This document shows, piece after piece, positions 14,997-33,169 of a stretch of 33,169 nucleotides of DNA. The stretch is from Planctomycetia bacterium. GTDB lineage: Bacteria; Planctomycetota; UBA1135; UBA2386. Both the position numbers and the translations under genes were made by a program. Positions within the stretch are counted from its first letter, which is position 1, and the number at the start of each line of letters is the position of its first letter. The stretch lies in NCBI GenBank assembly GCA_005776365.1, contig SXPK01000230.1, forward strand, positions 1 through 33,169. Direction: 5' to 3'. A model generated the notes under the pieces. The model did not search any database and was not told the origin of the DNA. It saw only the letters and a list, made by a program, of their open reading frames with translations.

Positions 14997-15764
14997 TCAG
15001 CGCTTGCCGTCGCCCTGGTTGCGCGCCTTCAGATAGGCCTCCCAGAACTTGCGATACTTCTCCTGCACCTTCGGTGGTGAGCCGCGGTTCTTGAGGAAGT
15101 TGGTGTAGCTCTGGAGCTTGCCCCATTCGTCCTCACCGCTGCCGGGCTGGCCGGGGGCGGTGCCGCCGTCGTTTGGCGCCTGGCCCTTTCGCACTTGGCC
15201 GTCCTGCTGCGTCTCCTGCCCGCCTTCGGGGCGGCCCTGCTGTGGCGGTTGCTGTTGCTGCTCTTGGCCCTGCGGCTGCTCGCCCTGCTGTTGTTGCGGA
15301 CGGTTTTGGCCTTGCTGCGGGTCCTGCTGCTGCTGGAAGTCCGGCGTCTGGCTCTCTTGGCGCTGCTGCTGGCCCTGCTGCTGTTGCTGCTGTTGCCGTT
15401 GCTGCTGCTGGTCTTGTTGTTGGCCTTGTTGCTGGTCCTGGCTCTCACTGGAACTGGACGAACTCTGCTGCTGCATCTGCTGCAGCTTCAGGATGAGCTC
15501 GTCGATGTTGCGCTCGACCCCCTGGCTCTGCTCGCGAGTTCGCGACAGGGATTCTTTGGGACTGGCTTTGGCGTCGGCTCCCTTCTGCTTGCTCGTCTCG
15601 AGCAGCATCCGGTCGATCTCCTTCATCTGCTCGTCGATCTTCTTGGCGAGTTCCTGGATCTCGCGCAGCGCCTCGGGATCCTGCGCGCGCAGGCTCGGGG
15701 CGAGCAGAAGCGCGAGCAAGAACGCGGCGGCGAGGAACGGGCGGGTGACACGGGGCGCGTTCAT
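14997..15764 (-). CDS. Exported Gln-rich low-complexity protein
   Basis: This is a 255-residue protein with ATG 15764 overlapping the upstream stop as ATGA and preceded by a strong AGGAGG. It has a Sec signal peptide (FLAAAFLLALLLAPSLRAQ), a helical segment (~29-95: EIQELAKKIDEQMKEIDRML) and then about 110 residues dominated by Gln with Gly and Pro. A compact C-terminus with aromatics closes it (DEWGKLQSYTNFLKN ... KYRKFWEAYLKARNQG). The ordered ends around a flexible Gln-rich middle suggest a tether or scaffold. No enzyme motif is visible. It is the last gene of the minus-strand VWA/MoxR cluster and closely follows another exported Gln-rich protein. The function is unknown. Confidence 0.8.
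   Translation of the reverse strand: MNAPRVTRPFLAAAFLLALLLAPSLRAQDPEALREIQELAKKIDEQMKEIDRMLLETSKQKGADAKASPKESLSRTREQSQGVERNIDELILKLQQMQQQSSSSSSESQDQQQGQQQDQQQQRQQQQQQQGQQQRQESQTPDFQQQQDPQQGQNRPQQQQGEQPQGQEQQQQPPQQGRPEGGQETQQDGQVRKGQAPNDGGTAPGQPGSGEDEWGKLQSYTNFLKNRGSPPKVQEKYRKFWEAYLKARNQGDGKR
15231..15480 (-). repeat. CAG/CAA-rich low-complexity tract (poly-Gln coding)
   Basis: The tract encodes the Gln-rich middle of the 255-residue protein. CAG and CAA codons are mixed and interrupted by Gly, Pro, Glu, Ser and Arg codons, so it is not a pure trinucleotide repeat. It could still vary in length by slippage. Antisense frames through it read as Leu-rich pseudo-membrane proteins, which are artefacts. 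Confidence 0.7.
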
Positions 15765-18700
15765 TTCTTGGTGCCCTCCTCTTGCTGCGAGCCGTCGTCG
15801 GTTTGTTGCATGCCCTGCATCATCGCTTCGACGCCCTGCTTGATCTGCAGGAACAGTTTGGTGACCTCGCCGTGGCGGTGCATCAGACGCTCGATCAGCG
15901 CGAGTTCGGCAGTGCTGACGTCATCGCCCTGGCGCAGTTCGACGAGCGTCTGCAGTTCTTCGTTGGAGCGTCGCGTGTCGGCTTCGAGCTGCTTCAGCAT
16001 CTCGAGCTCTGCGATCAGCGAGACGAGCTTCTGCCGCTGCTGGTTGAAGCGGTTCTGGCCCGGTTGCTGCTGTTGTTGCTGTTGTTGCTCTTCCTGGCGC
16101 TGCTGCTCGCGTCGCTTTTGCTCGCGTTCGAGCGCCGCCAGCAGGTCGCGGGCGCGGCGCTCGACGTCTTGCTGCATCGTCGTCGTGAAGCGCGATGGGT
16201 CGGGGTTGCGGCCGGCGAGCCTTCGCGCGATCTCCGCCAGATCTTCCTGATTGGCAGAAAGCACAGCGCGGTAGACGAGGTTGCCCTCTTCGTGGAGCGC
16301 CTTGACCATCGTCTCGGCCCGGGTTGAGAGCGACTGCTCCTCCTCGGCGAACTGGTTGAGCTTGCGACGCGAGGGGCGCGACAGCGTGCCAGAGTCGGCT
16401 TCTTTCTGCAGCGCCTCGGTCTCCTTGGTGATCGGCTGCTGCTTCTCGAGGAACGAGGTCAACTCCTCCTTCATGCGGAAGAGCAACTCCTCCTGCCGCT
16501 GATCGAGGTAGCTGTCGCGCTCTTCTTCGAGCTGCTCGCGGGCTTCCTCGAGCTTCTTCTGCGTCTGTTCCTGCTGTTGCTCCGACTCCTGTTCTTCGCC
16601 CTGTTGCATCGCCTGTTGCGCCTTGCGTGCGCTCTCGGCGGCATCCTCCAAGGCGCGGCGGGCTTCAGGGTTCTTGCGCTGCTTGGCTTCTTCCGCAAGG
16701 CGAAGAATCTCTTCCTCGAGTTTCTTCTGCTCCTCGGCGAGCTTCTTCATCGCCTCCTGCTGTTCAGGGCCTGGCTCGCGCTCCTTTTGCAGCGCTTGCT
16801 GCGCCTGCTGCAGCGCCTGCGTGGCCTCGCGCTGCTGCTGACTCGCTGACGATTGCTGGCCCTGCTGCAGCGCTTCTTGCGCGCGTTGCATCGCTTGCTG
16901 CGCCTGCTCCATTTTCTGCTGCGCAGCCTCTTGCTGTGCCTTGGACAGCGCGCCGGCTTGCTGCGCCTGCTGCATCGCTTGTTCTGCCTGCTGCGCGCGC
17001 TGCCGCAGGTCTTGCTGCCGCTCGGCCGCGGCCTGCATCTCCGCTTCGCGGTCCCCGCCGGACTCTGCCAATGCCTGTTCGAGGGTCTGCTTCGCCGCTT
17101 CGAGTTGCTCACGCGAGGACTGCAGCTGTTGGTCGAGGTCCTGCTGTGATTGTGGCTGCTGCGGCTGTTCGCCTGGGGACGGCTGCCGCTGGTTCTGCTG
17201 GCGGCCGCCTTGCGGCTCTTTGCCCTGCTGCGGATTGCCCTGCTGCTGGCTGCCCTGCTGCGGGTTGCCCTGTTGTGGCTCTATGCCCTGTTGCTGGGGT
17301 TGCTCGCCTTGTTGCGGCTCGTCGCCCTGCTGTGGCTTCGAAGCCTGACGGCCTTGCTGATTGTCACTGCCGCCTTCGCGCTGTTGCTGGCGTCGCTCGA
17401 GGCCCTGGCCGGCTTCTCGCAGCGCCTGCTCGGCCTTGCTGAGCGCGTCGGCCGCCTGCTGCTCTGCCTGCTCGCCCGACGGCGCGTTGCGCAGTTCCCG
17501 CTCGGTGGCGTCGGCTTCGGCTGCCATCGACTCGGCGACGGCTCGCGCATCGGGGCTCTGCTCGGCAGCGCGCTTGCGCGCATCCTCGAGCGCGCGCATC
17601 GCTTGCTGCACGCGGGCCTGCGCTTCCTTGGCGTCGCCTGCGCCAGCCTGTTGGCCAGCTTGGCGAAGTTGTTCCTCCGCCTGCCGCAATGCGTTCTGCG
17701 GCGTCGCGTCCTCGGGCTTGCGCTCGCTCGCGGGCCGTGGGTCCGCCGCGTCGAACTGCTGCTGCAGCGGTTTGCTCGCGTCAGCGAGTTGCTCGGCAGT
17801 GGTCTTGTTGCGCTGCGCTTCGGTCTCTTGCCGTGACTCCGCCGCAGCCTTGGCCTGTGCTGCAAACTGTTGCAGTTGCTCGCGCTGCTCTTGCTCCGAT
17901 CCCTGCCTGGCCTGCTGCAAGCCGTCGGTGAGCTGCTGCCATTGCTGGCGCGCGGCCGGCGCATCCTGGCGCTCGGGACGAACGGGCGTGCGCTGTAACT
18001 CGGTCTGCAGGCGGTCGGCAGCGTCTTGCATCGCTGACTGGTCGCCGGTCTGCGCAGCTTGTTCCAACCGCTCGGCGGCCTGTTTCACATCGGACTTCCG
18101 GCCCTGATCGCGCACGTCAGAAGACAACTCGCGAGCGCGCTCCATGAGTTCGCCGAGATCGAATTGCTGCTGGCGCGCGGAGTCCGCTTCGCCGCTGCGC
18201 TCCTTCGCCTCGCGTTGCTCGAGCGTCGTCTGCTGGCGGAGCAGTTGCTGCACCCGCTTGTAGGCGTCCTCGAGGAACGGCCGGCGCGTGCCGGCTTCGC
18301 GCGCGTTGCGTTGGGCCTCGGTTGCTTGCTCGCGCGCAAGCTGCTGCAGTTGCTCTTCGATCGCACGCTCCGCTTGCGTCGCGTCGCGCTCGGCTGCGCG
18401 TTGCGTTTCTTGCCGCAGTTGCTCCTGCTTTTCTTCCGCCTGCTTGATGCGGTCCGCGAGCTCACCGAGCTTCTGGATCTCCTGCTCCATGTTCTCGACG
18501 GAGCGGCGCTGGAGCAGGATGTTGAGCAGGCGCTCGATGTCGGCGATGACTTCTTGTTGCTTGCGCAGCGCATCGGAGAGGGCATTGGCCGCGAGGTTGT
18601 CGCGTACGGACGCCACGTCCTCGAGCAGGCCGGAGCGCTGCAAGTGGTCAAGGCCTTGCTGCAATAGCGCGACCTGCTCGGGCTTGCTTTCGCGCACGTA

Positions 18701-18883
18701 TCGCTCGCGCAAGCGATCCATCAAGTCGCGCAGACGCCCGGCCTTGCGCAGGATCTCGTCCTGGTCGCGGCGAAGGCGTTCGAGCTGTTGCTCTGGATCC
18801 TGGCTTGGATCTTGTGCGACGGCAGGCGCGGCGAACGCGAGCGACAGCAGCAGCACCGCGGCGCGGCGGATGGGGGCCTTCAT
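15761..18883 (-). CDS. Large exported Gln/Glu-rich coiled-coil protein
   Basis: This is a 1040-residue protein. ATG 18883 is chosen because it opens a signal peptide (MKAPIRRAAVLLLSLAFAAP, cut near AVAQ), is preceded by AAGGA at 5-nt spacing and forms an ATGA overlap with the upstream stop; the frame above it is non-coding. After 'QDPSQDPEQQLERLRRDQDE' nearly the whole chain is predicted helical, with long Glu/Gln/Arg/Ala heptad-like stretches. It is interrupted around residues 510-575 by a flexible Pro-Gln-Gln-Gly repeat region. The C-terminal ~200 residues are more mixed (for example RKLNQFAEEEQSLSTRAETM), with a second Gln run before a final helical part. It probably forms a long periplasmic or surface rod or spacer. 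With the membrane gene upstream it resembles a split DUF4175/TIGR02302-like layout. The function is unknown. Confidence 0.82.
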   Translation of the reverse strand: MKAPIRRAAVLLLSLAFAAPAVAQDPSQDPEQQLERLRRDQDEILRKAGRLRDLMDRLRERYVRESKPEQVALLQQGLDHLQRSGLLEDVASVRDNLAANALSDALRKQQEVIADIERLLNILLQRRSVENMEQEIQKLGELADRIKQAEEKQEQLRQETQRAAERDATQAERAIEEQLQQLAREQATEAQRNAREAGTRRPFLEDAYKRVQQLLRQQTTLEQREAKERSGEADSARQQQFDLGELMERARELSSDVRDQGRKSDVKQAAERLEQAAQTGDQSAMQDAADRLQTELQRTPVRPERQDAPAARQQWQQLTDGLQQARQGSEQEQREQLQQFAAQAKAAAESRQETEAQRNKTTAEQLADASKPLQQQFDAADPRPASERKPEDATPQNALRQAEEQLRQAGQQAGAGDAKEAQARVQQAMRALEDARKRAAEQSPDARAVAESMAAEADATERELRNAPSGEQAEQQAADALSKAEQALREAGQGLERRQQQREGGSDNQQGRQASKPQQGDEPQQGEQPQQQGIEPQQGNPQQGSQQQGNPQQGKEPQGGRQQNQRQPSPGEQPQQPQSQQDLDQQLQSSREQLEAAKQTLEQALAESGGDREAEMQAAAERQQDLRQRAQQAEQAMQQAQQAGALSKAQQEAAQQKMEQAQQAMQRAQEALQQGQQSSASQQQREATQALQQAQQALQKEREPGPEQQEAMKKLAEEQKKLEEEILRLAEEAKQRKNPEARRALEDAAESARKAQQAMQQGEEQESEQQQEQTQKKLEEAREQLEEERDSYLDQRQEELLFRMKEELTSFLEKQQPITKETEALQKEADSGTLSRPSRRKLNQFAEEEQSLSTRAETMVKALHEEGNLVYRAVLSANQEDLAEIARRLAGRNPDPSRFTTTMQQDVERRARDLLAALEREQKRREQQRQEEQQQQQQQQPGQNRFNQQRQKLVSLIAELEMLKQLEADTRRSNEELQTLVELRQGDDVSTAELALIERLMHRHGEVTKLFLQIKQGVEAMMQGMQQTDDGSQQEEGTKK
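15775..15780 (-). promoter_or_regulatory. Ribosome binding site AGGAGG for the Gln-rich gene
   Basis: A full AGGAGG lies 10 nt before ATG 15764, inside the end of the upstream gene. It allows independent initiation in addition to coupling through the ATGA overlap. Confidence 0.6.
17209..17340 (-). repeat. PQQG-type tandem repeat region in the coiled-coil gene
   Basis: About 130 bp encode imperfect repeats of the form x-PQQG (KPQQG, EPQQG, EPQQG, NPQQG, NPQQG with QQQG variants). On the plus strand they appear as repeated GCCCTGCTGCGG-like units. They break the helical chain and probably act as a flexible linker. The repeats are protein-level and imperfect; they are not CRISPR or an IS end. 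Confidence 0.7.
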
Positions 18884-21228
18884 TTGCGTCCTTGCGTTTG
18901 TTGGGTGCGGTTTTGCACGTCGCGTTGCTTCTCCATCAGCGAACGCGCTTCCTGCACGAGGTCTTGGTAGTCGTTCCACTCGTCGAGCTTCGACAAGAGC
19001 TCCTGCAAGCTCCTGGTGATCGCGTCCTGCATCGCCAGCGCCTGCTGCAGCGAAGCGAGCAGCGACTCTGCCGTGCCGGCGACCTGAGCTTCGGCGAGCC
19101 TGCGCAAGAGCGGCGGGGACAGCTCACCCGCGAGTCCGTCCGCGAGACTGACCATGCGCAGGATTGGGTCGAGGCTTTGCTCCATCGCGCCGATGACGCC
19201 CTGCTGGCGTTGTTGCTGCAGCGCGCGGTAGAAGGCGGGCGAGAAGGGCTGCGGGTCGTCATGCTGGCGATGCCAGCTTTCGTAGAACGCGATCGCTTGT
19301 GCCGCGTTGGGGCTCGGGTCGAGTCGGTTCCAGAGGTGCAGGTCAAACGCGCGCATGGCGCCGCGCAACAGTCGCTCCGATGCGGACTGGATCCTGCCCT
19401 GGCCGACCTCGACGACGGTGAGTTCCTGCGCGACCGCGGCCGATGGCCGCGGCGACGATGCGATCAAGTCGGTGAGACGTGCGCGCCGGTCGTTCTGCAG
19501 GTCGAGCGCCTGCTCGGCTTCTTCGCGCAACGAGCGGAAGTGGCGGCCGATCGCCGCCGACAACTGCGCCTGATCGACGACCTGGATCTGGCGCCGAGGC
19601 AACTGCGTCGCGTTGGGCGCAGGGTCCTTGTTGTCGGTGAAGTCGACTTGCAGGCCGAGCGCATCGGTCGTGCCGCCAACGGGCAGCAGGTCCTTCAACT
19701 CGGCCAGTTGCAGGAACAGCAGTTCGTTGCGCGGGGCTTCTTCGGCTGTCGGCGCAGCAAGCAGTTGCTTGTCGGTGACACGGCCTTGGCCGGCGTCGAC
19801 CTGGAGCTTGCCGGTCTGCAGCCCAAAGTCGTCGCGCGCGTGAACGCGCACGCACAAGATCGCCTCAGGCAACAGCGGCGTGTTGGCTTCGTCGTCGGGG
19901 CTGAGCCAGCGACCGACGGGCGCATAGTCCTGCAGCGCGCTGATGGGATAGGCGCCGGGGTTTGGGTTCTTCAGGCCGCCTTCGCCCAGTAGTTCGACCT
20001 GGTAACGGTCGCTTTGTTCGACCACGAAGTTGCCGACGAGCGCGGTCGCGGCGCCGGAGTCGTCGGTGATCTGCTGTGCCGCGAGCGGCACGCGCTTGTT
20101 GCTCTCGAGGAAGACCAGCGTTGCGGAGTCGACGGGCTGCGTGCAGCGCACCGTGATGCGGACCTCGGTGCCGAGCAAGGCCTCGATGGCTCCGCCGGTC
20201 TGCGTTTCGATTGCCTTGCGCGTGTAGGCCGGCGAGGTCAGTTCTGCCTGCACGTCGGCGACGAGCGGTGGGTGCACCGTGAGAACCGTGACCGTGCGGT
20301 CGCCGCTTTCGTCATCGCCGCCGCGGGCGTGAAACGTAAAGCCCGTCATGACGCGTCGGAACACGTGGCGGAAGCGGCCGCCTGGTCGTGGCGCAGTGGC
20401 GATGTTGCGCAAGGCGCCGCTCTGACTGGTCACCAGCAGGAAGACTTCTTTTGGCACCACTCCATCTGCCAGCACGGAGACGGGCAGGTCCGCGCCGGCC
20501 GGCAGCGTGATGCGGGTCTCGCTGCCCGAGTCCTTTCGGTGCAGGTCCTGGCCGGCTTGCGGCAACTCGAGGACGAGGCGCGTCTGCCGCGGATAGGCGA
20601 CGTCGAAGCCGAGGTGGCGCCACACGAAGGCGGCTGCCGTGTCCGGCATTGCGATCGCGCCGCCGCAAAGCAGCAGCGCGAGCGTCGCAGCGCCAGTCCA
20701 AAGCTTGCGCGTGCGCGTTGGGATGAACAACTGGTGCAAGGGCAACGATTGCGCCGCCGTCGCCGCGTCCGCGACCAGTCGCTCGATCATCGCCGCGGAC
20801 TGGTTGCGCAAGCCTTCGTCGTCGGACGCTGCGAGGCTGGCCTTCAACTGCACTGCGGAGACGAGCCGTTCGTGCAACTCCGGAAATGCGCGCTCCAGGA
20901 GCACTGCGGCGTCGGTCTCGGAAAACCGCTTCGACAGCGGATACCAAACGAATCGCCACGCGGCGATCGCAAAGGTTGCCGCGATGATCAGCGTGTGGAA
21001 CAGGCGGATCGGCGTGGGCAGCCGCAGCACGTGATCGAGCACGAATGCCCCAAGCACCACGGCGCCGGGCAGCAGCACGGCGGTGGCGAGGCCGTGCACG
21101 AGGTAGCGATGCCGGACGCGCGCGAGCTGCCCATCGAGGAGGCGGTCGAGTTCCAACGATGCAGCCACTCTGCTCGCGCCGTCGACGAGCTGCGGGGACT
21201 GCGGTGGTTGCGGGGCGGTGATGGCCAC
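18880..21228 (-). CDS. DUF4175-like membrane protein with three N-terminal TM helices
   Basis: This 782-residue protein has a GTG start at 21228, one base after the toroid stop, and its TGA overlaps the next ATG. The N-terminus is cytosolic (~1-44). Then come TM1 (~46-68, LATAVLLPGAVVLGAFVLDHVL), TM2 (~76-97) and, after a helical region with AFPELHERLVSAVQLKASL, TM3 (~176-194). The remaining ~590 residues are predicted periplasmic. First are beta-sandwich-like repeats (LVADVQAELTSPAYTRKAIE ... VRITVRCTQPVDSATLVFLE; ARDDFGLQTGKLQVD). Then comes a helical C-terminus (EEAEQALDLQNDRRARLTDL ... RNRTQQTQGRK). The layout matches the DUF4175/TIGR02302 family of 2-3 TM proteins with Gln-rich tails; here the Gln-rich part sits in the two following genes. 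The function is unknown. Confidence 0.78.
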   Translation of the reverse strand: MAITAPQPPQSPQLVDGASRVAASLELDRLLDGQLARVRHRYLVHGLATAVLLPGAVVLGAFVLDHVLRLPTPIRLFHTLIIAATFAIAAWRFVWYPLSKRFSETDAAVLLERAFPELHERLVSAVQLKASLAASDDEGLRNQSAAMIERLVADAATAAQSLPLHQLFIPTRTRKLWTGAATLALLLCGGAIAMPDTAAAFVWRHLGFDVAYPRQTRLVLELPQAGQDLHRKDSGSETRITLPAGADLPVSVLADGVVPKEVFLLVTSQSGALRNIATAPRPGGRFRHVFRRVMTGFTFHARGGDDESGDRTVTVLTVHPPLVADVQAELTSPAYTRKAIETQTGGAIEALLGTEVRITVRCTQPVDSATLVFLESNKRVPLAAQQITDDSGAATALVGNFVVEQSDRYQVELLGEGGLKNPNPGAYPISALQDYAPVGRWLSPDDEANTPLLPEAILCVRVHARDDFGLQTGKLQVDAGQGRVTDKQLLAAPTAEEAPRNELLFLQLAELKDLLPVGGTTDALGLQVDFTDNKDPAPNATQLPRRQIQVVDQAQLSAAIGRHFRSLREEAEQALDLQNDRRARLTDLIASSPRPSAAVAQELTVVEVGQGRIQSASERLLRGAMRAFDLHLWNRLDPSPNAAQAIAFYESWHRQHDDPQPFSPAFYRALQQQRQQGVIGAMEQSLDPILRMVSLADGLAGELSPPLLRRLAEAQVAGTAESLLASLQQALAMQDAITRSLQELLSKLDEWNDYQDLVQEARSLMEKQRDVQNRTQQTQGRK
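18889..18893 (-). promoter_or_regulatory. Ribosome binding site AAGGA for the coiled-coil gene
   Basis: AAGGA lies 5 nt before ATG 18883 and, with the signal peptide that begins there, fixes this start against the longer open frame to 18979. Confidence 0.6.
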
Positions 21229-21229: not shown

Positions 21230-22366
21230 TCAGCGTTGGAAGATTGGCAGGTACTGCAAGGGGATCTGCAGGATCAGGCACGCGATGGCGGTGCCGAACA
21301 CGGGCCCGGGGCCGACTTCGTTGGGCCAGCTTCCATCGGAGCGCTGCATGCGCAGCAAGCGACTCTTGACCTCCGCGAAGTAGCGTCGCCACTGCGGACC
21401 GCCCGTGATGTAGTAGGCCTGCACGGCGTAGTAATGGCCGTAGTAGAAGAAGTAGTGGCCGTGATCGTTCTGGTCGTTGAACGAGAACAGCTCGCGGTCC
21501 ATGTAGTCGAGCGCGTCCTTGATCACCGGGCTGTCGTATTCGCCGGCTGCGTAGAGCGTGGTCACACCAGCGCCAGTCAGCGGAAAGGTCGCGCGCGTCT
21601 GCGGCTTGAGCTGGTAGCGGAACGAGCCGCCATCGTCGCCATAGCCACCTTGGCCACGCCACGGGCGGCGCGTGCGTTCGTTGCTGCGCACGGCGCTGCG
21701 GTAGACGTAGTTCTGCGCATTGCGAATCGTCGTCGTCGGCACATGGATGCCGACGTTGCGCGCGGAGCGCAGTGCGAGCACCTGGCAGACGGTGATCGAC
21801 ATGTCCGACTCGCGCGCGAACGGACGGTAGCGCCAGCCGCCTTCGGCATTCTGCGAGTCGACGATCAGGTTGACCGAGCGCTGCAGCACGCTCTTCACGC
21901 GGGGGTTGCTCGACATGCCGTAGATCTCGGCGAGGAACAAGGTCGCGAACGCATGGCTGTACATGCGCGTGCCGTTCTCGGTGATCTGGCCGTCGTCCTG
22001 CGCGCACGAGAGCACGTGTTCGAGCGCGCGAGTGATCGAGTCGCCGTATTTGCCGCGGTCCGGCAAGTGGCCGCCGGCGAGGAAGGCGATGCCCGCGAGC
22101 GCCGTGACGCCGACATGGGGCAGCGGGTTGCTGTCGACGGTCTCGTAATCGCTATTGAGCTTGTAGCCGACCAACTGGTCCCAGCAGCCCTTTGGCGTCT
22201 GCGTCTTCTGCAGGTAGTCGAGGCCGCGTTCGGCTGCGGCCTTGGTCTCGGCGTCGACGAGGTGGTCGTCGACGGAGCTGCGAATGCGCTGTTCTTGCGT
22301 GGCGCCGCTCGCGGCCAGCGCGAGCGCGGCAACGACTGCGGGGATCGAGGTGCGTAGCGCAGTCAT
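21230..22366 (-). CDS. Secreted alpha/alpha-toroid (prenyltransferase / squalene-cyclase-like repeat) protein
   Basis: This 378-residue protein starts at ATG 22366 (ATGA overlap with the upstream stop, AGGGG 5 nt before). It has a signal peptide (TSIPAVVAALALAASGATQ). The body is made of toroid repeats with QW-like ends: ERGLDYLQKTQTPKGCW, NLIVDSQNAEGGWRYRP, GGYGDDGGSFRYQ and LLRMQRSDGSWPNE, finishing with the planctomycete-typical 'ILQIPLQYLPIFQR'. The length equals a single toroid rather than the double barrel of true hopene cyclases (~630 aa), and no DxDD acid motif is seen. The fold is therefore that of terpene cyclases or prenyltransferases, but cyclase activity is unlikely, and a secreted location also argues against it. 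It may be a binding or scaffold module in the VWA cluster. Confidence 0.85.
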   Translation of the reverse strand: MTALRTSIPAVVAALALAASGATQEQRIRSSVDDHLVDAETKAAAERGLDYLQKTQTPKGCWDQLVGYKLNSDYETVDSNPLPHVGVTALAGIAFLAGGHLPDRGKYGDSITRALEHVLSCAQDDGQITENGTRMYSHAFATLFLAEIYGMSSNPRVKSVLQRSVNLIVDSQNAEGGWRYRPFARESDMSITVCQVLALRSARNVGIHVPTTTIRNAQNYVYRSAVRSNERTRRPWRGQGGYGDDGGSFRYQLKPQTRATFPLTGAGVTTLYAAGEYDSPVIKDALDYMDRELFSFNDQNDHGHYFFYYGHYYAVQAYYITGGPQWRRYFAEVKSRLLRMQRSDGSWPNEVGPGPVFGTAIACLILQIPLQYLPIFQR

Positions 22367-25300
22367 TTCGGCCCCTGGACGGTGCCCAGCAGGTAGATGC
22401 GTGAATCGGTCACGAGCACAGTGTAGGCCGAGATGTCGGCCAACTCATGGGTCGAACGCGGCTGGGTCGGGACCATCAGATTGGTGCGGCGGCCGGGCAT
22501 TGCGGAGGACCGGTCGATGGCATTCAGGGCGTAGACCCGGACCGGGCCGGTCGAACGTCGAGAATGTGTCGCGAAGCACAAGATGCCGTCGCGCAACCAC
22601 GGCGTGCGGATGACTTCTTCGGTCGAACTGCCGGCCAGTGTCTGGAAGGGTTCCTCGCCATCTTGCAGCGGCACCGCGACGAAGCGGCGGTCGCCGGTGT
22701 CGGGGTCGAGGTCTGACAGCAGCAGGCGCTCGGGGGCCGGCACGTCGGTGCGCTGGCGGCGCCAGTTGAGCACTTGCAGATCGAGGCCGAGCGCGACGCG
22801 GCGGATCTCGGTGCCACTCTTGGCATCGAGCACGACGGCGCGGGCCTGCACCGCGGTCCGGCCAGAGCGCGCGGGCGAGCCGGCGGCGACGACCACGATG
22901 CGGCCGGCGCAGAGTCCTTCCATGGCCAGCGATTGGCCGGCTTCGCCATTCCATTGCCACGCCACTTTGCCGGCGTTGTCGACCGCGATCAGCGCGGGCG
23001 CGCCGTCGCCACGCAGCGCGCCGTCGAGCGGCAGATACACGCGCTCGCGGTCGGCGAAGAACCGTTGCAGCAACAGCGGCGATTGGATGACTTCGGGCGG
23101 GGCCATCGAGGCCTCTCGCAACTCGTCGCCGAGCAGGATCTCGGCTGTCGTCGCACCGGTCAGCGGATCGATGCGCAGCAAGGTCGTCGGCCCTTCGTCG
23201 CTCGAATGCGTCAGCAGCAAGTCCGTCGAGGTCGCGCGCGGTTGCGGCGCGAATCCGGTCCCCGAACAGTCGCGCTCGAACAGCTCGCGTCCGGTCAGCG
23301 GTTCGACGCCGACGAGCGTGACGCGGTCGTCGCCGCGCCGCTGCGTGACGAGCAGCACGCCGTCGATCACGCCGTGGCAGACGAGCAACGTGTCGTCGAA
23401 GGCCATTTGCCAGAGTTGCTTGCCGGTGCGTGAGTCGACTGCGTCGATCCGTTCGAGGGTGGGGACGATCAGGGCATCGCCGCACGACCACAGTCGTTCG
23501 ACGCCGCCGGTGCGCAGCGAGTATCGGGTCGGCAGCGCTGGGTCGGAGAGGTCGATGGCGCGGACCTGTTCTTCGATGCTGACGAAGAGCAGTGACGGGG
23601 AAGCCGGCCGGAAGCCCTCTGCCTCACGCACTGGCAAGGCGCGCATCGGCGACGGCGGCGCGGGGTTCGTGAGTTCGGCGATCACTGCGGTGGGAATCGC
23701 AGCAACTGGACGCGGCTCGACGGCGGCCAGTTCGGCAATCTGCGCGCGCGCCACGTCGGCGAAGGTCTTGCCATTGTCGGCGGGCCAGTCTGACGCCGTG
23801 TTCTCGTGGAGAATGGTCGCCAGCAAGCGACGCGCGAGTGTGCGGTTGCCGCGCGACGTCGCAGCTTTCGCTGCGCGCCGCGCGACGCCAGGCGCCTGCT
23901 TGCCAGCGCGCATCGTCGTTGCCCAGACGTCCAGCGCCGTGCCGAGGTCGCCTTCTGCGACCGCGGCGTCCAGCAGGCGAGTCTCGGCTCTGCGCGCCGC
24001 GGCGCTATGCGGGTAATCAGAGCAGACGGTCCGCAATCCGCGCGCGTCCTCGCCCGCGGCATCAAGGCTCGCGGCGGCGCGGGCCTCGACCTCGGCGTAG
24101 ATGGCGGCGCCATGATCGCGGAGCAATGCGGCGATTGCGTCGTGCGCGAGGTCCCTGGCAGGGCGGCGAAGCAGCGTTGCTTCGCCGTGCGACTGCAGCA
24201 GGTCCTGCCAAGCGAGCAATCGCGCTTTCGGCTCGCGCTCAAGTCGCGCCAGTCGCCAGCGCACATACGGCTCGACTTCGACCGGACCCAGCGCTTCGGG
24301 CAGCGCAAACGTCTCGCCGCGCGCGCGCGCGCGCAGCGTCTCGAGTTCGCGCCGCAGCGCCGAGTCGTCGGCGCGCACGCGCTCGCGCTCGTTCGACTGT
24401 GCGCGCAAGAACGCTTCTTGATCGGGAGCCGAGTCACGGGCCTCGACGAGCAAGTCGATGCTCTTGTTGCCCTCTTCTCGGATCGCTCGCGCAAGTGCCG
24501 ACTCGAAGAGCCGGCGCAGGAACGTCGCATGCAGCGGGTGTTCGCGCGGCAGGCCCTGGGCCTTGGCTGCGCTCGCGCCGCGGCGGCACAGCGCCTCGAT
24601 GGACTTCTCGCTGCCGCCGGCCGCCCCTTCCAGCGTGCAGACGCGAAGGATGGCGCCAGGATCGTCCGGCGTCGCTTCCATGCGCGCACGCGCTCGCTCG
24701 CGCAGCGCCGATGCGTCGACCAGCGTCTCGAAAGCGCCGTTGCGCAACGAGATCGCGATGCCGTCGACCAGCAGCAGGTTGCCCGGCGCGACGAACTCGA
24801 GCCGAGGCGCGTCGGCGACCTCTGTGCCCTTGATGTCGAGGACCTTCACGGAGTCCTGGCGCGGCAGATAGATCCGGCTGCGCGTCACCGCGGGCCGCGG
24901 GAACTCATTCTGCTCGTCGTCGAAGAGTGCGTCGCGCGAGCACAACTGGCGCACGACTGCACGCATCTGCGGCGCCTTCTGTCGCGCAGCGACGGCGACG
25001 ACGCCGGCGCCGGAGAAGATGAACTCACTGTCGATCGCGCCACAGAGCCAGCGCACGTCATTGTTGCCGCCCGCTCTCGCTTCGTGCGGCAAGGCCCACA
25101 GTGGTTCGCCGGTCGCAGCGTCGATGCCCAGCGCCGCCTCGGAATCGAGTGGCGTGAAGGCGACGACGCCGTCGCAGCATGCGGGCGGGCTGTTGTGGAA
25201 GAAGACCGGCCGCGCATCCTGGCCCTGCATCTGAGTCGGCGGCATCCGGATGACTTCATACGAAGTGAGCCACTGCAGTCGGCCCGAGTCGCGGTCGATG

Positions 25301-26927: not shown

Positions 26928-29354
26928 TCAGACGAGGCGGGCGCGCTTGCGCAGGATCCACTCGGCGCCGAGCACGACGAGCAGGGCAATCAGGGACTCC
27001 AGCCGGTCCCAGAACGGCGTGGTCCGGGTCTCCTCGCGGGTCTCGTAGGCCTTGCGATTCTCGAAGTCTTTCGCGAGCGAGTCGGCCTCGGCCAAGAACA
27101 CGGCGCGCGCGCGGGTGTCCTTGTCGGACGACTTCTCCGCGATCTTGGCGAGCGCGACGGCATCCAGGCTCGGGTCCGCGAACTCGCGGTCGGGCAGGCG
27201 AACGAGCACGTCTTCGCGCGCCTTTGCCTGATCGGCCGGGTTGTGATTCTGGAACACGAGAAAGCTGAAGGCGCCAGGGTCGTTCATCGTGAACGTGGCT
27301 TGGAACGTGCCCGGTTCGCCAGCCACCGCGCGCAACGCGCGGCGTTCGACCGTGCCCTTCTGGTCGCGCAAGAAGATCGGCTGCTCCTGCGCCGCGTTTG
27401 GCTGCAGTTCGCTGTCGCTCGCACGAAGTTGCACGCGCACGGAGTCGCCAGTCTCGAGCACGATCTTGTCGACGGTCAGTTCGAGCAGGTCATCGCGGCG
27501 CTGCAAGCGGCCCTGCGCGAGATGGCGCACGACATTGCGCCAGAATGCGTCCTGGTAGAGCTCGCCATACGGGTAGCGCCAGATCCACGTCTCGTCGGTG
27601 GCGATGAAGAAGGTGGTGCCGCGCGGGTGCGGCGACACGACGGCGATCGGGCGCTTGCCGTAGCGGCTCTCGTCGGTGGGGTGCCGCAGCAGCACCGTTG
27701 CGCCGGGTTTGCTGCGCAGTGTCGGGTAGTAGACACGGAAGCCCGGCAGACCCTCTTCCCACAGCCGACGGTTCAGCGCCGGGTCGCGCTGCAACATCAG
27801 GATCTCGTGCGGTTGCAGCGGGTTCTCGAGTCGACTGCGGAAGGCGACGCTGGTGTCGGGCTTGTTGCGCGGATTGCCGAGCCAGACCGGGTCCTCGAGC
27901 ACGACGGGCAACAGGTCCTGCAGCGGAGTGTTGCGATAGCGCTCTGGCATCGCCTGCGGGCCGTAGAGGAATCCGACGCCGCCGCCGAACTCGACGAAGC
28001 GCACGAGCATCTCCAGCCAGCTACGCACGCCTTCTTCGGTGGGCGCGATGCGTTCGGGCGCGAGGTCACCGATCAGCACGACGTGGTATTGCAGCAGTTC
28101 CTTCTCGGTGCGCGGGATGTCCTTCAGCGGCGGCAGTTCGTCGGAGTGCTCCTGCACGAACTTGGGGCTCGCATCGAATAGCACGGCCTGCATCTGGATC
28201 GACGGATCGACGCGCTGCAGCGCGTTGTGCACGTAGCGATACTCCCAGCGCGGCAAGTTCTCGAGGTAGAGCACACGGATGCGCTCGTCATTGACGCGCA
28301 GAAAGCGCGTGTCCTCGTTGTCGTCGGGTTGGCTCTCCTCTGGCAGCGGCACCAGCGAGAAACGCAGCGTCCAGTCGCCGGCCTCGAGGAAAGCGTGGCT
28401 CAGTCGCGCTGGCAGCGCGGCGCCGTCTTCTGGCAGGTCGACGGTCGTGCTGGTCAGCACGCGCTCGGTCCCGCCTTCGCGCGTGCCGTGCAGCTCGACG
28501 CGCGTCGTCTTGCCGCGAAGGCCAGCGGCGCGCACCGAAACGTCGAAGGCCACGGTTTCTTGGCGCAACGCCTCTTTGGGGCCGGGCGGGCCGACGATCC
28601 ACGCGTTCCTCGGCGGCTGCGGGTCGCCGACGCCGATGGTGTGGATCGGCACGCCGCGCAGAGCGAAGCGTTCCGCGACTTCGGCGGGGTCGAGGCCTGA
28701 GTTGTTGCGCCCGTCCGAGACGAGCACGACTGCGTCGAGGTTGCTGGTGGCCGCGGTCGCCAGGTGCACGTCGAGCGCGTCGCCGAGCTGCGTGCGCGAG
28801 CCGCGCGCGGTGACCTCGGAGAGTTCGCGGATCGGCAGCGGCTTGCGTTGCACGCGGAACAGGCGCACGTCGTGTTCCTTGCCGAGTTGTTCGAGCAGGC
28901 CGCCTTTGCGCGACAGCACCTTGGCCGCTAGTTCCGCGCGCGACGTCGCGTCGATCTCGACCCCCGGCAGCAGTGCTGCGAGCGCGTCATGCTGTTCTGC
29001 CTCCGGGTAGGAGTCCTTGCGCGACATGCTCGCGCTGTCGTCGACGAGCACGTGGATCTGGTTCTGCGTCTTGCGATAGATGGTCGTTTCCCACGCCGGC
29101 TGAAAGAGCAGCGCGCAGCACAGGACGATTGCGAGCGCGCGCAGCGACGACAGCACGATGCGGGTGTTGCGTTCGAGCCGGTCGAGTCCGGCATAGGACC
29201 ACCACGCGGCGAAGCCGATCGCAGGAACCATGACCAGCGCCACGACCCAATAGGGCGGCAGCCACAGGAAGCGAAAGGTCTCTTCGACGTGCGTCGAGTC
29301 GCCCTGACTCGGGTCCGGCCAATGCAAGAGGATGGAGTGGAGGGTCGCGATCAT
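26928..29354 (-). CDS. Membrane VWA protein with GATase-like domain
   Basis: This 808-residue protein has ATG 29354 two bases after the BatA-like stop. Two TM helices lie near the N-terminus (~34-52 PYWVVALVMVPAIGFAAWW; ~66-84), and one lies at the C-terminus (~782-800, LIALLVVLGAEWIL). The VWA domain (~98-245) has an intact MIDAS: DDSAS (Asp105, Ser107, Ser109), Thr188 and Asp214 in VVLVSDGRNNSG. A beta-sandwich region follows (~255-350). A class I glutamine-amidotransferase-like domain follows that (~355-620: RIRVLYLENLPRWEYRYVHN ... FVEFGGGVGFLYGP), apparently without the nucleophilic Cys, then another beta domain. This architecture is typical of planctomycete operons with MoxR and BatA. 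It probably works as a metal-dependent protein-interaction partner in the membrane, acted on by the MoxR ATPase; this role is inferred. Confidence 0.88.
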   Translation of the reverse strand: MIATLHSILLHWPDPSQGDSTHVEETFRFLWLPPYWVVALVMVPAIGFAAWWSYAGLDRLERNTRIVLSSLRALAIVLCCALLFQPAWETTIYRKTQNQIHVLVDDSASMSRKDSYPEAEQHDALAALLPGVEIDATSRAELAAKVLSRKGGLLEQLGKEHDVRLFRVQRKPLPIRELSEVTARGSRTQLGDALDVHLATAATSNLDAVVLVSDGRNNSGLDPAEVAERFALRGVPIHTIGVGDPQPPRNAWIVGPPGPKEALRQETVAFDVSVRAAGLRGKTTRVELHGTREGGTERVLTSTTVDLPEDGAALPARLSHAFLEAGDWTLRFSLVPLPEESQPDDNEDTRFLRVNDERIRVLYLENLPRWEYRYVHNALQRVDPSIQMQAVLFDASPKFVQEHSDELPPLKDIPRTEKELLQYHVVLIGDLAPERIAPTEEGVRSWLEMLVRFVEFGGGVGFLYGPQAMPERYRNTPLQDLLPVVLEDPVWLGNPRNKPDTSVAFRSRLENPLQPHEILMLQRDPALNRRLWEEGLPGFRVYYPTLRSKPGATVLLRHPTDESRYGKRPIAVVSPHPRGTTFFIATDETWIWRYPYGELYQDAFWRNVVRHLAQGRLQRRDDLLELTVDKIVLETGDSVRVQLRASDSELQPNAAQEQPIFLRDQKGTVERRALRAVAGEPGTFQATFTMNDPGAFSFLVFQNHNPADQAKAREDVLVRLPDREFADPSLDAVALAKIAEKSSDKDTRARAVFLAEADSLAKDFENRKAYETREETRTTPFWDRLESLIALLVVLGAEWILRKRARLV

Positions 29355-29356: not shown

Positions 29357-31681
29357 TCAGCTCCTCCGCACCGAGACGTAGCGGGCCATCGCGGCTTCGC
29401 CGAGCACGAGCAAGAGCGTCAGCAGGAGCAACGACGGCGCGAGCTCGCTCTCGTTGGCGGCTTTGGTGTCGGTGGTCTCCGACGGGATCTGCTGGTGGAT
29501 CCGCTCGACGCCGAGCGCGGACTGCGCGTCAGCATGCGCCGCATACTGCAGCGCGCCTTCTTCGGGGTCGACGCGCACCGCAAAGGTCTGCGTCATCGGC
29601 TCCTTGCCGGTGTCGCGCTGCAAGGTCATCTCGATCGTGTAGAAGCCGGCCATCGTCGCGCCCGACCATGGCGGCAACGAGTAGCGTCCGCCGGGCAGCG
29701 CCCGCGGCTCGTCGGTGAGCGGCAGCTTCTTGCCGCCGGCGCGTTCGGGCAGCAGCACTTCGATGTCGGCGGGGCGCGCTGGCACCGTCGCTGCGAGCGC
29801 GGATCCGATCTCGACCTGGAACATGTCGCGCGCGGGTGACGACAGCCATTGCAGCATGCCGTGCAGCAGCGGGAACACGACGAAGGGGTCGTCGAACCGA
29901 TTCCATCGCTTGCCGTCGTATTCGGAGGCCGGCGCGCTGGTGAGGAAGGCAGCGCGGCCTTCGCCGAATGCACGAGTGACCAGCAATGGTGATTGGTCCG
30001 GGTCCGTCAGGCGCAGGACGACTTCGGCATTCTCGGCCAGCGAATCGGTGGCAGTCCCGTGCCACTGCCACACCGGGACGGCTTGCAGGATCTCGCGGTA
30101 GACGTCTTCGTCGAACTCGCGCAAGACGCCGTGCTGCGGCAGCGCGATCGTCGCTGCCCGCGGTTGCGTCGAGCCCGCGGCGCCGCCGCTTATGAGACCG
30201 AGGCGGAAGGGCATCGGGCCTTCGCCGGCTGCGTGCAGTTGCAAATCATAGCTCGCGGCGTCGGCGCGGCGGCCGAGCGCGACCAGCAGGCCCTTGCCCG
30301 CTTGCAGCGCTCGCGTGATCGAATCGGCGGCGCGCTCATTGAGGCGATCGACGTCGGCAAGCAGCGTGACGTCGAAGGCACCGGGGTCCTGTTGGCCCGA
30401 CAGCAACGCGAGCGTGTCTGCGACCGTGACGTCGAACATGCCGAGTTCGCCCGCGACCTCGCGTTCGGCGGTGCGCGCGCCAAAGTCGGCGGGATCGAGC
30501 ATGCCCTTGTAGAACCAACCGTAGGTTTTCAGCGGGTCATCGTCAGCGGCGCCGTCGACAACCAACACGGCAATGCGTTCGCGCACGTCGAGGATCGCGT
30601 GGCGCTCGTCGTCCGCTTCGAGCGCGTCCTGGTCGATCGTCGCGCGGATCCTGCGCTTGCCGGGTTCGCGGATGACGATCGAGAACTCGGCCTCGCCTTC
30701 GGCCATTGGCTCGAGCTGGATCTGCTTGCGGATCGGTTCGGCGCCGTCGACGTCGAGCGCGACCTGCAAGGAGGCACGAGCGGCCGATCGGTTCTGCAAC
30801 TCGACGACGATCGTCAGCGGCACTCGTGCGAGCGGGACCGGCTGATCGCACGAGAGCCCGGTGATCTGCGCGTTGTCGACCGTTCCACCCTGGCGTTCGT
30901 CGGCGAGCGGGCCGACGTCGATCCAGTGCACCTGCGTGCCTTCGCGCGCGCGCAAGCGATCCAGGGTGTCGCGGATCGTGTCCTTGAACTCCGGGCCGTC
31001 GGATCGCGCATTGCCAGCGGTCTCGCCGCCAGTCTTCGGCGCGAGCAGCGTTCCGAGCGAACGCGCCTGCAGGTCGGTGAGGACATGCACTTGCACAGCA
31101 GCATCGGCGCCCTCCTCGATCGCCTGCGCCACTTGCAGCAGCGCGGGTCCGAGGTCGGTCGCGGCGTCCTCGGGTCGCTGCAGTTCCAGCAGCAGCGCTT
31201 TGCCGGCGGCGAGGTTCAACTCACGCTGCACGAGGAAGCGAGGGCGGACGCCAGCGGCGACGATGGTGAGCTTGTCGGCTCGTTCCGGCGAAGCCTGCAA
31301 GCCCTCGATCAGCCGCGCCGCCATGCCGCGCGCCTTCTCGAAGGGGCTCTGTGCGCCATCGCGAACGACGCCCATGCTGAAGCTCTGGTCGATCAGCACG
31401 ACGTGATGCGTCGAACCGCCAAGGCCGACCAGCGCCGCGGCGCTCTCCAGCACGGGACGCGCGATTGCGAGCGCGAGCACGATCGGGATCAGGCAACGCA
31501 GCAACAGCAGCAGCAGGTTCTCGTTGCGAAGCCGGTTGCGCGTCTTCTGGTAGGCGCGGAGCAAGAACTCCATCGCTGCCCAGTCGCGGCGCTTGTGCCG
31601 CTGGCGGTTCAGCAGGTGGATGACGAGCGGCACCGCGAACAACAGCGCGCCCGCGATCAGGCCTGGGTTCAGGAACTGCAC
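29357..31681 (-). CDS. BatA-domain membrane protein with VWA domain
   Basis: This is a 774-residue protein. GTG 31681 is chosen because it gives the exact BatA family opening (MQFLNPGLIAGALLFAVPLV then IHLLNRQRHKRRDW); GGAAG lies 6 nt upstream. TM1 is ~9-24 and TM2 ~55-75 (LLLLLLRCLIPIVLALAIA). The VWA domain starts at ~93 with IDQSFSM (Asp98, Ser100, Ser102), so the MIDAS start is intact. Long beta-rich regions follow, including a CARDB-like part (ARVPLTIVVELQNRSAARAS) and a segment like the GATase fold (~395-640: AVLVVDGAADDDPLKTYGWF). A C-terminal TM (~750-768, PSLLLLTLLLVLGEAAMA) closes it. BatA proteins belong to MoxR-linked Bat operons; their exact action is not settled. Gaps are 3 bp to DUF58 and 2 bp to the next VWA gene. 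Confidence 0.9.
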   Translation of the reverse strand: MQFLNPGLIAGALLFAVPLVIHLLNRQRHKRRDWAAMEFLLRAYQKTRNRLRNENLLLLLLRCLIPIVLALAIARPVLESAAALVGLGGSTHHVVLIDQSFSMGVVRDGAQSPFEKARGMAARLIEGLQASPERADKLTIVAAGVRPRFLVQRELNLAAGKALLLELQRPEDAATDLGPALLQVAQAIEEGADAAVQVHVLTDLQARSLGTLLAPKTGGETAGNARSDGPEFKDTIRDTLDRLRAREGTQVHWIDVGPLADERQGGTVDNAQITGLSCDQPVPLARVPLTIVVELQNRSAARASLQVALDVDGAEPIRKQIQLEPMAEGEAEFSIVIREPGKRRIRATIDQDALEADDERHAILDVRERIAVLVVDGAADDDPLKTYGWFYKGMLDPADFGARTAEREVAGELGMFDVTVADTLALLSGQQDPGAFDVTLLADVDRLNERAADSITRALQAGKGLLVALGRRADAASYDLQLHAAGEGPMPFRLGLISGGAAGSTQPRAATIALPQHGVLREFDEDVYREILQAVPVWQWHGTATDSLAENAEVVLRLTDPDQSPLLVTRAFGEGRAAFLTSAPASEYDGKRWNRFDDPFVVFPLLHGMLQWLSSPARDMFQVEIGSALAATVPARPADIEVLLPERAGGKKLPLTDEPRALPGGRYSLPPWSGATMAGFYTIEMTLQRDTGKEPMTQTFAVRVDPEEGALQYAAHADAQSALGVERIHQQIPSETTDTKAANESELAPSLLLLTLLLVLGEAAMARYVSVRRS
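29361..29367 (-). promoter_or_regulatory. Ribosome binding site GGAGGAG for the VWA/GATase gene
   Basis: GGAGGAG lies 6 nt before ATG 29354, within the last codons of the BatA-like gene. It supports the start and suggests efficient translation of this gene. Confidence 0.6.
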
Positions 31682-31684: not shown

Positions 31685-32599
31685 TTACTTCCGGCGCTTG
31701 CGACGCGCGGCGCGCGCCGAGAGATACGAGGTGAGCACGACGTCCAGTGGCTGGCTGTTCACGACGCGCACGTAGTCGATGCGGTTTTGCAGGCAGCCCT
31801 TCTTGATCTGGTCGCAGAACGATTCGATCTCGACGAGGTAGGCGTCGCGCAGCGACTTCGGGTCGACCAGCAGCTCGGGCATTTGCTCGAGTCCCTGGAA
31901 CAGCGTCATGCGCTCGAAGGGGAACTCGAGCTCGTCCTTGTCGAGCACGTGGAACACGACCACGTCGTGGCCGCGTTGCGCGATGGCCCGGAGTCCCTTG
32001 AGCACCTCAGCCGGCGCGTCGAAGAGGTCGCTGAAGATCATCACCAGGCCACGCTGGCGCAGCTCGCTGGCGAGTTCCTGCAGCACTTCGCCAGCCTTGG
32101 TCTTCTTGTTGCGGGCCTTGGCCTGCTCGAGCGACGAGAACAGATTGCCGAGGCTCGCGCGCGTGTTGGAGGGCGGCGTCTGTCGCGCGACGCTTTCGTC
32201 GAACAGCGTCAGGCCGACGGCGTCGGCCTGCTGCTGGATCATGTAGGCGAGGCTCGCGACCGCCGTGGCGGAGTAGTCGAACTTCGACATGCCGCCGTCG
32301 TGCGCGTAGTTCATCGACTCGCTCTGGTCGAGGAACAGGTGCGCGCGGAGGTTGGTCTCCTCCTCGAACTGCTTGACCACGTAGCGGTCCGACTTGCCGT
32401 AGATCTTCCAGTCGAGGTAACGCAGGTCGTCGCCGGGCACGTATTCGCGGTGCTGCGCGAACTCGACGGAGAAACCGCGGAAGGGCGACTTGTGCATGCC
32501 CGTGACGAAGCCCTCGACGACGAGTCGCGCGCGCAGGTCGAGGCGCGCGACCTTGCCGAGCACCTTGGGGTCGAGGTAGTCAGGGTTCGCGTCGGTCAT
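31685..32599 (-). CDS. DUF58 domain protein (VWA-like)
   Basis: This is a 304-residue cytosolic protein; ATG 32599 (MTDANPDYLD) is preferred over a TTG six codons upstream. The DUF58 signature is complete: FRGFSVEFAQHREYVPGDDL, then RYLDWKIYGKSDRYVVKQFE (residues ~40-80). The adjoining VWA-like fold has DQSESM (Asp91, Ser93, Ser95) and VMIFSDLFD. There is no TM helix, unlike the longer membrane-bound DUF58 proteins. DUF58 proteins are the usual neighbours of MoxR ATPases and are thought to link the ATPase to membrane VWA partners. It lies 42 bp after moxR, across a stem-loop, and 3 bp before the BatA gene. The basic tail (ARAARRKRRK) could contact nucleic acid, lipid or the ATPase. Confidence 0.93.
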   Translation of the reverse strand: MTDANPDYLDPKVLGKVARLDLRARLVVEGFVTGMHKSPFRGFSVEFAQHREYVPGDDLRYLDWKIYGKSDRYVVKQFEEETNLRAHLFLDQSESMNYAHDGGMSKFDYSATAVASLAYMIQQQADAVGLTLFDESVARQTPPSNTRASLGNLFSSLEQAKARNKKTKAGEVLQELASELRQRGLVMIFSDLFDAPAEVLKGLRAIAQRGHDVVVFHVLDKDELEFPFERMTLFQGLEQMPELLVDPKSLRDAYLVEIESFCDQIKKGCLQNRIDYVRVVNSQPLDVVLTSYLSARAARRKRRK

Positions 32600-32611
32600 G
32601 GCTGGAACGCG

Positions 32612-32633: not shown

Positions 32634-32641
32634 GTCTGCTG

Positions 32642-33169
32642 CTATTGCTTCAGGACCTTGGGCAGCCGGTCGTCGGCGAGCGCCAGGCTTTCGTTGGGTT
32701 GCACTTCTTGCAGCAGGCGTTCGATCACCGCGTCCGTGGTGACGCCTTCGGCTTCGGCCGAGAAGCTCGTGATGATGCGGTGGCGCATCACCGGCTTGGC
32801 GACGGCGCGGATGTCCTCGGCGCTGACGTAGAAGCGGCCTTGCAAGAGCGCGTGCGCCTTGGCGCCGAGCACGAGGTTCTGGCTCGCGCGCGGGCCAGCG
32901 CCCCATTGCAGCCAGTCCTTCATCCACTGCGGCGCATCTGCCGTTGTGATGCGCGTGCTGCGGGTGAGACGCAGTGCGTAGTCCAGCACTGAGTCGCTGA
33001 TCGGCACGCGGCGCACGATCGATTGCAGTTCGAAGATCTGCTGCTCGCTGAGGACCGGCTTGACCTCGTGCGTGCGGTCTTCGGTGGTGCGACGCAGGAT
33101 CTCGCGCTCCTCCTCGCCAGTGGGGTAGTCGACCTTCACCATGAACATGAAGCGGTCGAGCTGCGCCTC
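32642..33169 (-). CDS. MoxR-family AAA+ ATPase, N-terminal part off the window
   Basis: The frame is open to the right edge; about 175 C-terminal residues are present, so Walker A and B are not visible. The first residues, EAQLDRFMFMVKVDYPTGEE, are the highly conserved MoxR segment after Walker B that carries the arginine-finger region. Then come the helical lid, GPRASQNLVLGAKAHALLQG (sensor 2) and RFYVSAEDIRAVAKPVMRHR, all typical of MoxR. MoxR ATPases act as chaperone-like remodelling machines with VWA-domain partners, as in Bat operons, methanol dehydrogenase maturation and RavA-ViaA. Three VWA-type genes follow directly. It is the first gene of the cluster within the window; its promoter must lie to the right. 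Confidence 0.95.
   Translation of the reverse strand, partial: EAQLDRFMFMVKVDYPTGEEEREILRRTTEDRTHEVKPVLSEQQIFELQSIVRRVPISDSVLDYALRLTRSTRITTADAPQWMKDWLQWGAGPRASQNLVLGAKAHALLQGRFYVSAEDIRAVAKPVMRHRIITSFSAEAEGVTTDAVIERLLQEVQPNESLALADDRLPKVLKQ

Follow-up and report, generated by a model that had tools for sequence, protein, structure and literature searches.

A conserved nine-gene MoxR–VWA cluster of Planctomycetota as a putative envelope assembly machine

Identification of the nine-gene cluster

The window analysed here is a stretch of 33,169 nucleotides comprising the complete contig SXPK01000230.1 (G000:C220) of the Planctomycetia bacterium assembly GCA_005776365.1, whose source genome is 65% complete. 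Nine open frames (g1 to g9) run along its minus strand from position 33169 down to 14997, in agreement with a first-pass annotation that had described nine genes without a strand change. On balance, we favour the reading that these genes encode one chaperone machine, centred on the inner membrane and driven by ATP, with which Planctomycetota assemble or maintain a complex of their envelope. Comparison of the loci strongly supports the nine genes as one system because their order is kept across the phylum, broken loci come apart into the same blocks, and a rearranged paralogous locus holds parts of the same kinds. One system had been the first-pass proposal, with synteny as its test, and the extension genes (g5 to g9) do adjoin the core (g1 to g4) in related genomes. 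The nine genes are as follows.

32642..33169, minus strand: g1, MoxR-family AAA+ ATPase, C-terminal 175 aa only (AAA_lid_2, E=4.5e-20)
31685..32599, minus strand: g2, DUF58 protein with a predicted cytosolic VWA domain (DUF58, E=2.7e-42)
29357..31681, minus strand: g3, BatA-type membrane protein, VWA domain predicted periplasmic (BatA, PF07584, E=2.8e-17; VWA_2, E=6.2e-7)
26928..29354, minus strand: g4, membrane VWA protein with GATase-like and beta domains, predicted periplasmic (VWA, E=3.8e-5)
22363..26808, minus strand: g5, exported TPR and BamB-like beta-propeller protein, both units doubled (PQQ_2, E=1.5e-23)
21230..22366, minus strand: g6, exported alpha/alpha toroid protein (SQHop_cyclase_C, E=2.3e-9)
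18880..21228, minus strand: g7, three membrane segments, Ig-like beta domains and C-terminal helices (model pLDDT 88.8)
15761..18883, minus strand: g8, exported, probably coiled-coil protein, Gln-rich here (signal-peptide-like N terminus)
14997..15764, minus strand: g9, small exported Gln-rich protein (order kept after g8; 4-bp overlap with g8)

The description of most junctions as 4-bp overlaps or 1–3 bp gaps held for six of the eight: junctions 5/6, 7/8, and 8/9 overlap by 4 bp, and 2/3, 3/4, and 6/7 are separated by 1–3 bp. The exceptions are the 42-bp gap at junction 1/2 (ATG start at 32599) and the 119-bp gap at junction 4/5. A promoter and terminator scan of the window yielded nothing above shuffled sequences. 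Signal-peptide and hydropathy readings identified export or membrane sequences in g3 to g9; the topologies given below are predictions from hydropathy and charge calculations.

Conservation of gene order

All 61 genomes of the window's own order hold homologues of BatA and g7, and on most large contigs these two lie approximately 10.5 kb apart, a spacing that fits g4 to g6 between them. The gene order was the same at all inspected loci of this order, and the flanking genes differed between families. Nine-gene profiles were run on 40 loci, mostly from other families, and on 80 drawn from a GTDB-based collection, whose titles, with few exceptions, read Planctomycetota or planctomycete. Nearly all loci with sufficient room showed the order 1-2-3-4-5-6-7-8(-9) on one strand. 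Among them is the cultured strain Planctomycetes bacterium Pla163 (CP036290.1), in which genes 1-8 follow this order. This wider synteny was read from six-frame profile searches; simple gene calling was unreliable at some loci of unlike composition (for example, X_G048, L065, and L088).

Among 294 genomes of the phylum, g4 was detected in 276 (E<=1e-10), g7 in 238 (E<=1e-40), and g5 in 177 (E<=1e-50). Every genome with g5 also contained g4 (177/177), and the 18 genomes lacking g4 had neither g5 nor g7 at these thresholds; these 18 represent only five families and are not 18 independent observations. Counting the listed best matches only, g4 and g5 were adjacent in 76 of 83 same-contig pairs, and g5 and g7 lay within 3.5 kb of each other in 58 of 69, the remainder being within approximately 10 kb on the same strand. 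Conservation of this extent is far beyond chance.

In the few families with a broken locus, it was split at junction 4/5 or 6/7 into the blocks 1-4, 5-6, and 7-9. Block 1-4 and genes 5-9 were found on different contigs in G152, and genes 5-6 were far from block 1-4 in G163 and G129, the distance being 7.6 Mb in the single-contig genome G163. Genes 7-8 with a further toroid gene were located on another contig in G185, G138, G279, and G307, and 18.7 kb separated g4 from g5 in G303. Assembly breaks may account for separate contigs, but not for the single-contig cases or for the loci with unrelated genes after g4 (L067 and L076).

Most genomes of the order carry a second, rearranged paralogous cluster, termed locus B (L039, on contig G000:C258, in the source genome itself; L040–L046). 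Its parts are PQQ/TPR, toroid, BatA, VWA-GATase, DUF4175-like, coiled-coil, TPR, NPCBM, and trypsin/PDZ proteins, and in families f21 and f61 it also includes MoxR and DUF58. That parts of the same kinds occur in two arrangements, the nine-gene order (locus A) and locus B, argues for functional linkage over mere neighbourhood. Separately, judged by BatA and g7 matches, G020 apparently has two copies of locus A (contigs C26 and C51).

These patterns also bear on whether the cluster serves two or three independent functions, with a generic stress or envelope chaperone encoded by genes 1-4 and unrelated products by genes 5-6 and 7-9, the order being kept by co-regulation only. The breaks at junctions 4/5 and 6/7, the position of the 119-bp gap at the 4/5 boundary, and the families without the extension beside the core would fit this explanation. 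We nevertheless consider it rather unlikely: similar blocks are re-associated in another order in locus B, the presence of g5 and of g7 depends on g4, and across loci the genes of pairs 3/4, 5/6, and 7/8 mostly overlap or are almost contiguous.

Outgroup operons were sought in plasmid records, among which only those of Gemmatirosa and Planctomyces SH-PL62 were useful. The Gemmatirosa plasmid, from outside the phylum, carries g4 and, approximately 4.5 kb further on, MoxR, DUF58, BatA, and DUF4175-like genes. Plasmid pPL62-3 of Planctomyces SH-PL62 (L179; NZ_CP011276.1, 1-10735) carries the core together with DUF4175-like, coiled-coil, and small-protein genes, the latter three annotated only as hypothetical. 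Its MoxR/DUF58 part is apparently broken or fused across frames, and neither a propeller nor a toroid gene adjoins g4 on this plasmid. These arrangements suggest that the core plus the DUF4175-like part may be the older unit, to which the propeller and toroid would have been added later.

MoxR and DUF58

The MoxR gene of the window is truncated by the contig end, and Pfam recognised its lid (AAA_lid_2) and no AAA_3 domain. A search for the missing part covered contigs C45, C73, and C114 from this genome, and no join to the window end was found among them. A complete MoxR gene followed by DUF58 and BatA is present in the same-genus genome G001 (locus L181; MoxR orthologue at L181:3337-4857), and its product scored 213.6 bits for AAA_3 and 70.8 bits for AAA_lid_2. 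Each of the 14 complete MoxR orthologues retains both ATPase motifs (Walker A GVPGLAKT and Walker B DEINR). The side before MoxR is missing from the window at the contig end; in many families outside the window's order, an extra, weakly PQQ/BamB-like protein is encoded directly before MoxR (L133, L138, L158, L171, and others).

The bpMoxR family (PF20030) also scored above its cut-off on the L181 MoxR (48.3 bits). This match, and the joint presence of MoxR, VWA, beta-propeller, and TPR proteins in planctomycetes, raised the question of whether the cluster is a MoxR-vWA-beta-propeller ternary conflict system, a type of defence system that Kaur et al. (2020) described. AAA_3 is a far better fit to the same stretch of MoxR, and two described features were not found: none of the VWA proteins g2 to g4 carries a propeller, and in place of the P-loop GXXXTAKS, which such systems often have, stands the Walker A motif given above. 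The locus further shows a near-universal, invariant make-up with no variable N terminus or effector, and PADLOC gave no meaningful match. Following the PADLOC search and the comparison with the ternary-system description, we rejected the defence-system reading, which appears highly improbable.

The DUF58 gene adjoins MoxR in nearly all loci with room. All 15 DUF58 orthologues possess the DxSxS motif, and no membrane segment was predicted. The cytosolic partner of MoxR is therefore probably the DUF58 VWA protein, given that the VWA domains of BatA and g4 are predicted to be periplasmic.

Membrane VWA proteins

In addition to BatA, g3 matched TIGR02226 (E=3.5e-23). The BatA protein has two N-terminal membrane segments and one C-terminal segment, with a positively charged first loop. 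The g4 protein has a similar N-terminal pair, and its C-terminal segment exceeded the threshold in only part of the orthologues. Under the positive-inside rule, the VWA domains of both proteins are predicted to face the periplasm, the location shown for the VWA domain of Borrelia BB0173, a protein with three membrane helices (PMC5700661). The VWA metal sites are mostly intact: DxSxS was found in 13 of 17 BatA rows, two of the remaining four being truncated, and the metal-ion-dependent adhesion site (MIDAS) of g4 is intact, with DxSxS in 17 of 18 rows.

Profile searches against PDB matched g4 to BatB (3ibs), GATase1-like structures (2gk3 and 3soz), and alpha-2-macroglobulin. No conserved Cys that could correspond to the class I glutamine amidotransferase catalytic residue was found in the GATase-like part of 16 g4 sequences. 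When the models of g4 (pLDDT 85.7) and g7 were compared with PDB folds, only multi-domain beta-sandwich proteins were matched, at query TM-scores of approximately 0.1–0.2, so the comparison can be read only as Ig-like or macroglobulin-like; g4 also gave a partial match to an oligosaccharyltransferase subunit.

Propeller and toroid proteins

The g5 protein had been described as a double PQQ propeller. Two propellers and a PQQ_2 match, comprising three PQQ_2 stretches in Pfam, bear out part of that description, but profile matches to TPR, BamD, and BamB structures revealed a layout of TPR followed by a BamB-like propeller, present twice. The best propeller-structure score was for BamB, which does not bind PQQ, and the first propeller weakly resembled quinoprotein dehydrogenases. 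The vicinal disulfide cysteines of PQQ dehydrogenases were not conserved, since a CC pair occurred in 4 of the 21 sequences of g5 and its position mostly differed between them.

The g6 protein is a secreted toroid, as the first-pass annotation had it, and shows 45–70% identity across the phylum. The DxDD motif of squalene-hopene cyclases was present in 0 of 25 toroid sequences. Without DxDD in g6 and conserved vicinal cysteines in g5, neither protein looks, by sequence, like the enzyme that its own fold suggests. Several families have a tenth member, a further toroid gene located after g9 (or g8) (L036:7927-9111, L038, L052, L054, L056, L058, L194–L196, L200, and L203).

The nature of g5 is central to an alternative in which g1 to g4 would serve solely to fold one exported client, likeliest g5, or to load it with a cofactor, in the way that MoxR acts on PQQ methanol dehydrogenase, with g6 to g9 as further client subunits. 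Such a role would accord with MoxR-VWA pairs that mature single complexes, namely MDH, NOR, and CODH (PMC3893208, PMC9976466), with the position of g5 directly after the core in the 76 of 83 pairs noted above, and with the weak quinoprotein-dehydrogenase likeness of its first propeller. The preference of g5 for BamB, the unconserved cysteines, and the several families whose core has no adjacent g5 speak against it, and we regard this alternative as doubtful.

The DUF4175-like pair and g9

Pfam and NCBIfam gave no meaningful family match for g7 to g9 of the window; NCBIfam yielded nothing for g7 or for fused g7+g8 proteins, and PF13779 (DUF4175) did not match the window g7 at E<=5. In some families g7 and g8 are a single fused gene, and the fused orthologues of family f32 matched PF13779 over approximately 190 residues (E=1.7e-6), the best score being 26.8 bits against a gathering cut-off of 27.3. 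Of the three-segment, DUF4175-like protein claimed for g7, the three segments were thus recovered, whereas the family likeness comes from the fused orthologues, below the cut-off, and not from the window protein. Through this remote link, g7 and g8 may represent the N-terminal and C-terminal halves, respectively, of a DUF4175-like protein. In the g7 model, membrane helices occupy the N terminus, followed by Ig-like beta domains and by helices at the C terminus. The longest frame of g8 opens with GTG at 18979, and the start that bears the signal peptide is ATG at 18883.

The two proteins g8 and g9 had been called exported and Gln-rich. Their Gln contents are indeed 19% and 25% in the window, but range among orthologues from 3.6 to 19% and from 2 to 25%, respectively. 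As judged from these sequences, Gln richness is a local compositional trait that is not conserved.

AdvA, a DUF4175-domain protein, is essential for division in Acinetobacter baumannii (PMC7481262), and Rhizobium cmd mutants have altered morphology (PMC5700661). A machine that organises the FtsZ-less division or the wall of planctomycetes would accommodate both observations. This seems very unlikely, as the likeness to DUF4175 is distant, falling short of the Pfam cut-off, and the extension is absent or non-adjacent in several families.

Proposed machine

The simplest reading, by analogy, is that the machine is an enlarged MoxR-DUF58-BatA-VWA (Bat/cmdABCD) envelope-integrity module, and its most likely role would be to assemble or maintain an envelope complex with energy from ATP. 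In this proposal, the cytosolic VWA protein DUF58 would pair with MoxR, and force or a change of state would be passed on to BatA and g4, whose VWA, GATase-like, and macroglobulin-like domains would sit in the periplasm. BatA, g4, and g7 would act as membrane transducers that relay the signal to the other side. A long periplasmic strut could be formed by the membrane-anchored g7 together with g8, the exported coiled coil, and the g5 double propeller and g6 toroid would be periplasmic scaffold or client proteins of a putative single complex. The first-pass annotation had a cytosolic AAA+ motor acting through membrane VWA proteins on a large periplasmic or surface structure; the motor is plausible, but with the VWA domains of BatA and g4 predicted in the periplasm, DUF58 is its likely contact.

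Several points weigh against this proposal. The core occurs without the extension after it at L076, L077, and L095, and genes 5-6 are elsewhere in two of these genomes. In f32 (L078 and L081), a fused g7-g8 gene of approximately 1250 aa comes straight after g4, with no g5-g6 between, and a g9-like gene comes next. Because some families have one or the other of these arrangements, the full nine-gene set is not obligatory. The 119-bp gap at junction 4/5 and the block structure may mean separate transcripts for genes 1-4 and 5-9. Two of 15 intact BatA rows lack the standard DxSxS, co-inheritance within a single phylum is partly common descent, and planctomycete copies have no reported phenotype, interaction, or transcript.

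A bolder version, which we hold to be unlikely, is a Planctomycetota-specific, ATP-powered, envelope-spanning machine in which an inner-membrane MoxR/VWA motor, the g7-g8 strut, and the g5-g6 scaffold would build or move an outer structure without counterpart in other phyla. The envelope and cell biology of Planctomycetota are unusual, and a large share of their essential and conserved genes have no known function (PMC10632474). With an order that varies little over much of the phylum and a paralogous copy in many genomes, the nine-gene locus is a strong candidate for a central component of planctomycete envelope biology. The little-understood MoxR-DUF58-BatA-VWA module also gains a defined set of partners, so that its client can be sought directly.

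Neighbouring genes in the window

A P-type cation ATPase gene (12264-14924) lies on the same strand, 72 bp after g9; no gene of this size and place was seen beside the locus in the relatives read. An alpha-L-fucosidase domain protein is encoded at 9401-12286 (plus strand; E=1.5e-104); its frame extends well upstream of the domain, and translation probably begins at a more internal position. The first part of the window encodes a Sortilin/BNR-repeat protein (3-3077, plus strand), a CstA carbon-starvation protein (4855-6546, minus strand), a CoaBC-like flavoprotein (6838-8172, plus strand), and an aldose-1-epimerase-like protein (8036-9211, plus strand).

Comparison with known systems

A literature search, made mostly without subscription papers, found only one paper naming DUF4175 and no account of the nine-gene arrangement, an absence that is weak evidence. 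The extension with propeller, toroid, and coiled coil appears undescribed.

Proteins of the DUF4175 family (PF13779), including AdvA, share with the fused g7+g8 orthologues the stretch of approximately 190 residues described above; unlike these proteins, the part is split into two genes here, the match lies below the cut-off, and the window protein has no direct match. Ternary conflict systems (PMC7159879) likewise combine MoxR with VWA and TPR/propeller proteins close to the membrane, and planctomycetes are among their hosts. They differ from the present locus, where the propeller is not fused to VWA, the P-loop is different, the composition is invariant, and no effector is present.

The mxa and NorQ/NorD systems resemble the cluster in that MoxR and VWA partners are encoded beside their target, which in mxa is a PQQ propeller enzyme, methanol dehydrogenase (MDH). 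In contrast, g5 is BamB-like and not recognisable as a PQQ enzyme, and there are extra membrane and scaffold genes. More generally, MoxR proteins and their VWA partners mature or assemble complexes (PMC3893208). For NorQ/NorD, MIDAS residues are needed for client activation and not for ATPase binding, and the VWA protein has been proposed to plug the ring (PMC9976466).

The core itself is known, as the first-pass annotation stated, and matches the Bat and Rhizobium cmdABCD modules. As cited in two papers, mutation of the four-gene core RL3499-RL3502 (cmdA-cmdD) of Rhizobium leguminosarum causes envelope and morphology defects, a TPR protein also has an envelope role in this species, and the MRP-subfamily MoxR lies in a conserved operon likened to Bat/DUF58/VWA loci (PMC5700661, PMC3893208). 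That operon has four genes, with no report of an exported propeller, a toroid, a DUF4175-like protein, or a coiled coil among its products; the likeness is drawn from the published descriptions. The Bat (Bacteroides aerotolerance) operon, including those of Leptospira and Borrelia (bb0170-0176), shares MoxR, DUF58, BatA/BatB membrane VWA proteins, and TPR proteins, and both a BatA-type double-anchor VWA protein (g3) and a second membrane VWA neighbour (g4) are present here. Pfam and NCBIfam identified no BatD, SH3, or separate BatC/BatE genes among g1 to g9, although BatD and small BatC/BatE TPR proteins belong to the Bacteroides/spirochete form of the module. Unlike in the Bat operon, the TPR part lies inside the g5 propeller fusion, and the core is accompanied by a toroid and the DUF4175-like pair.

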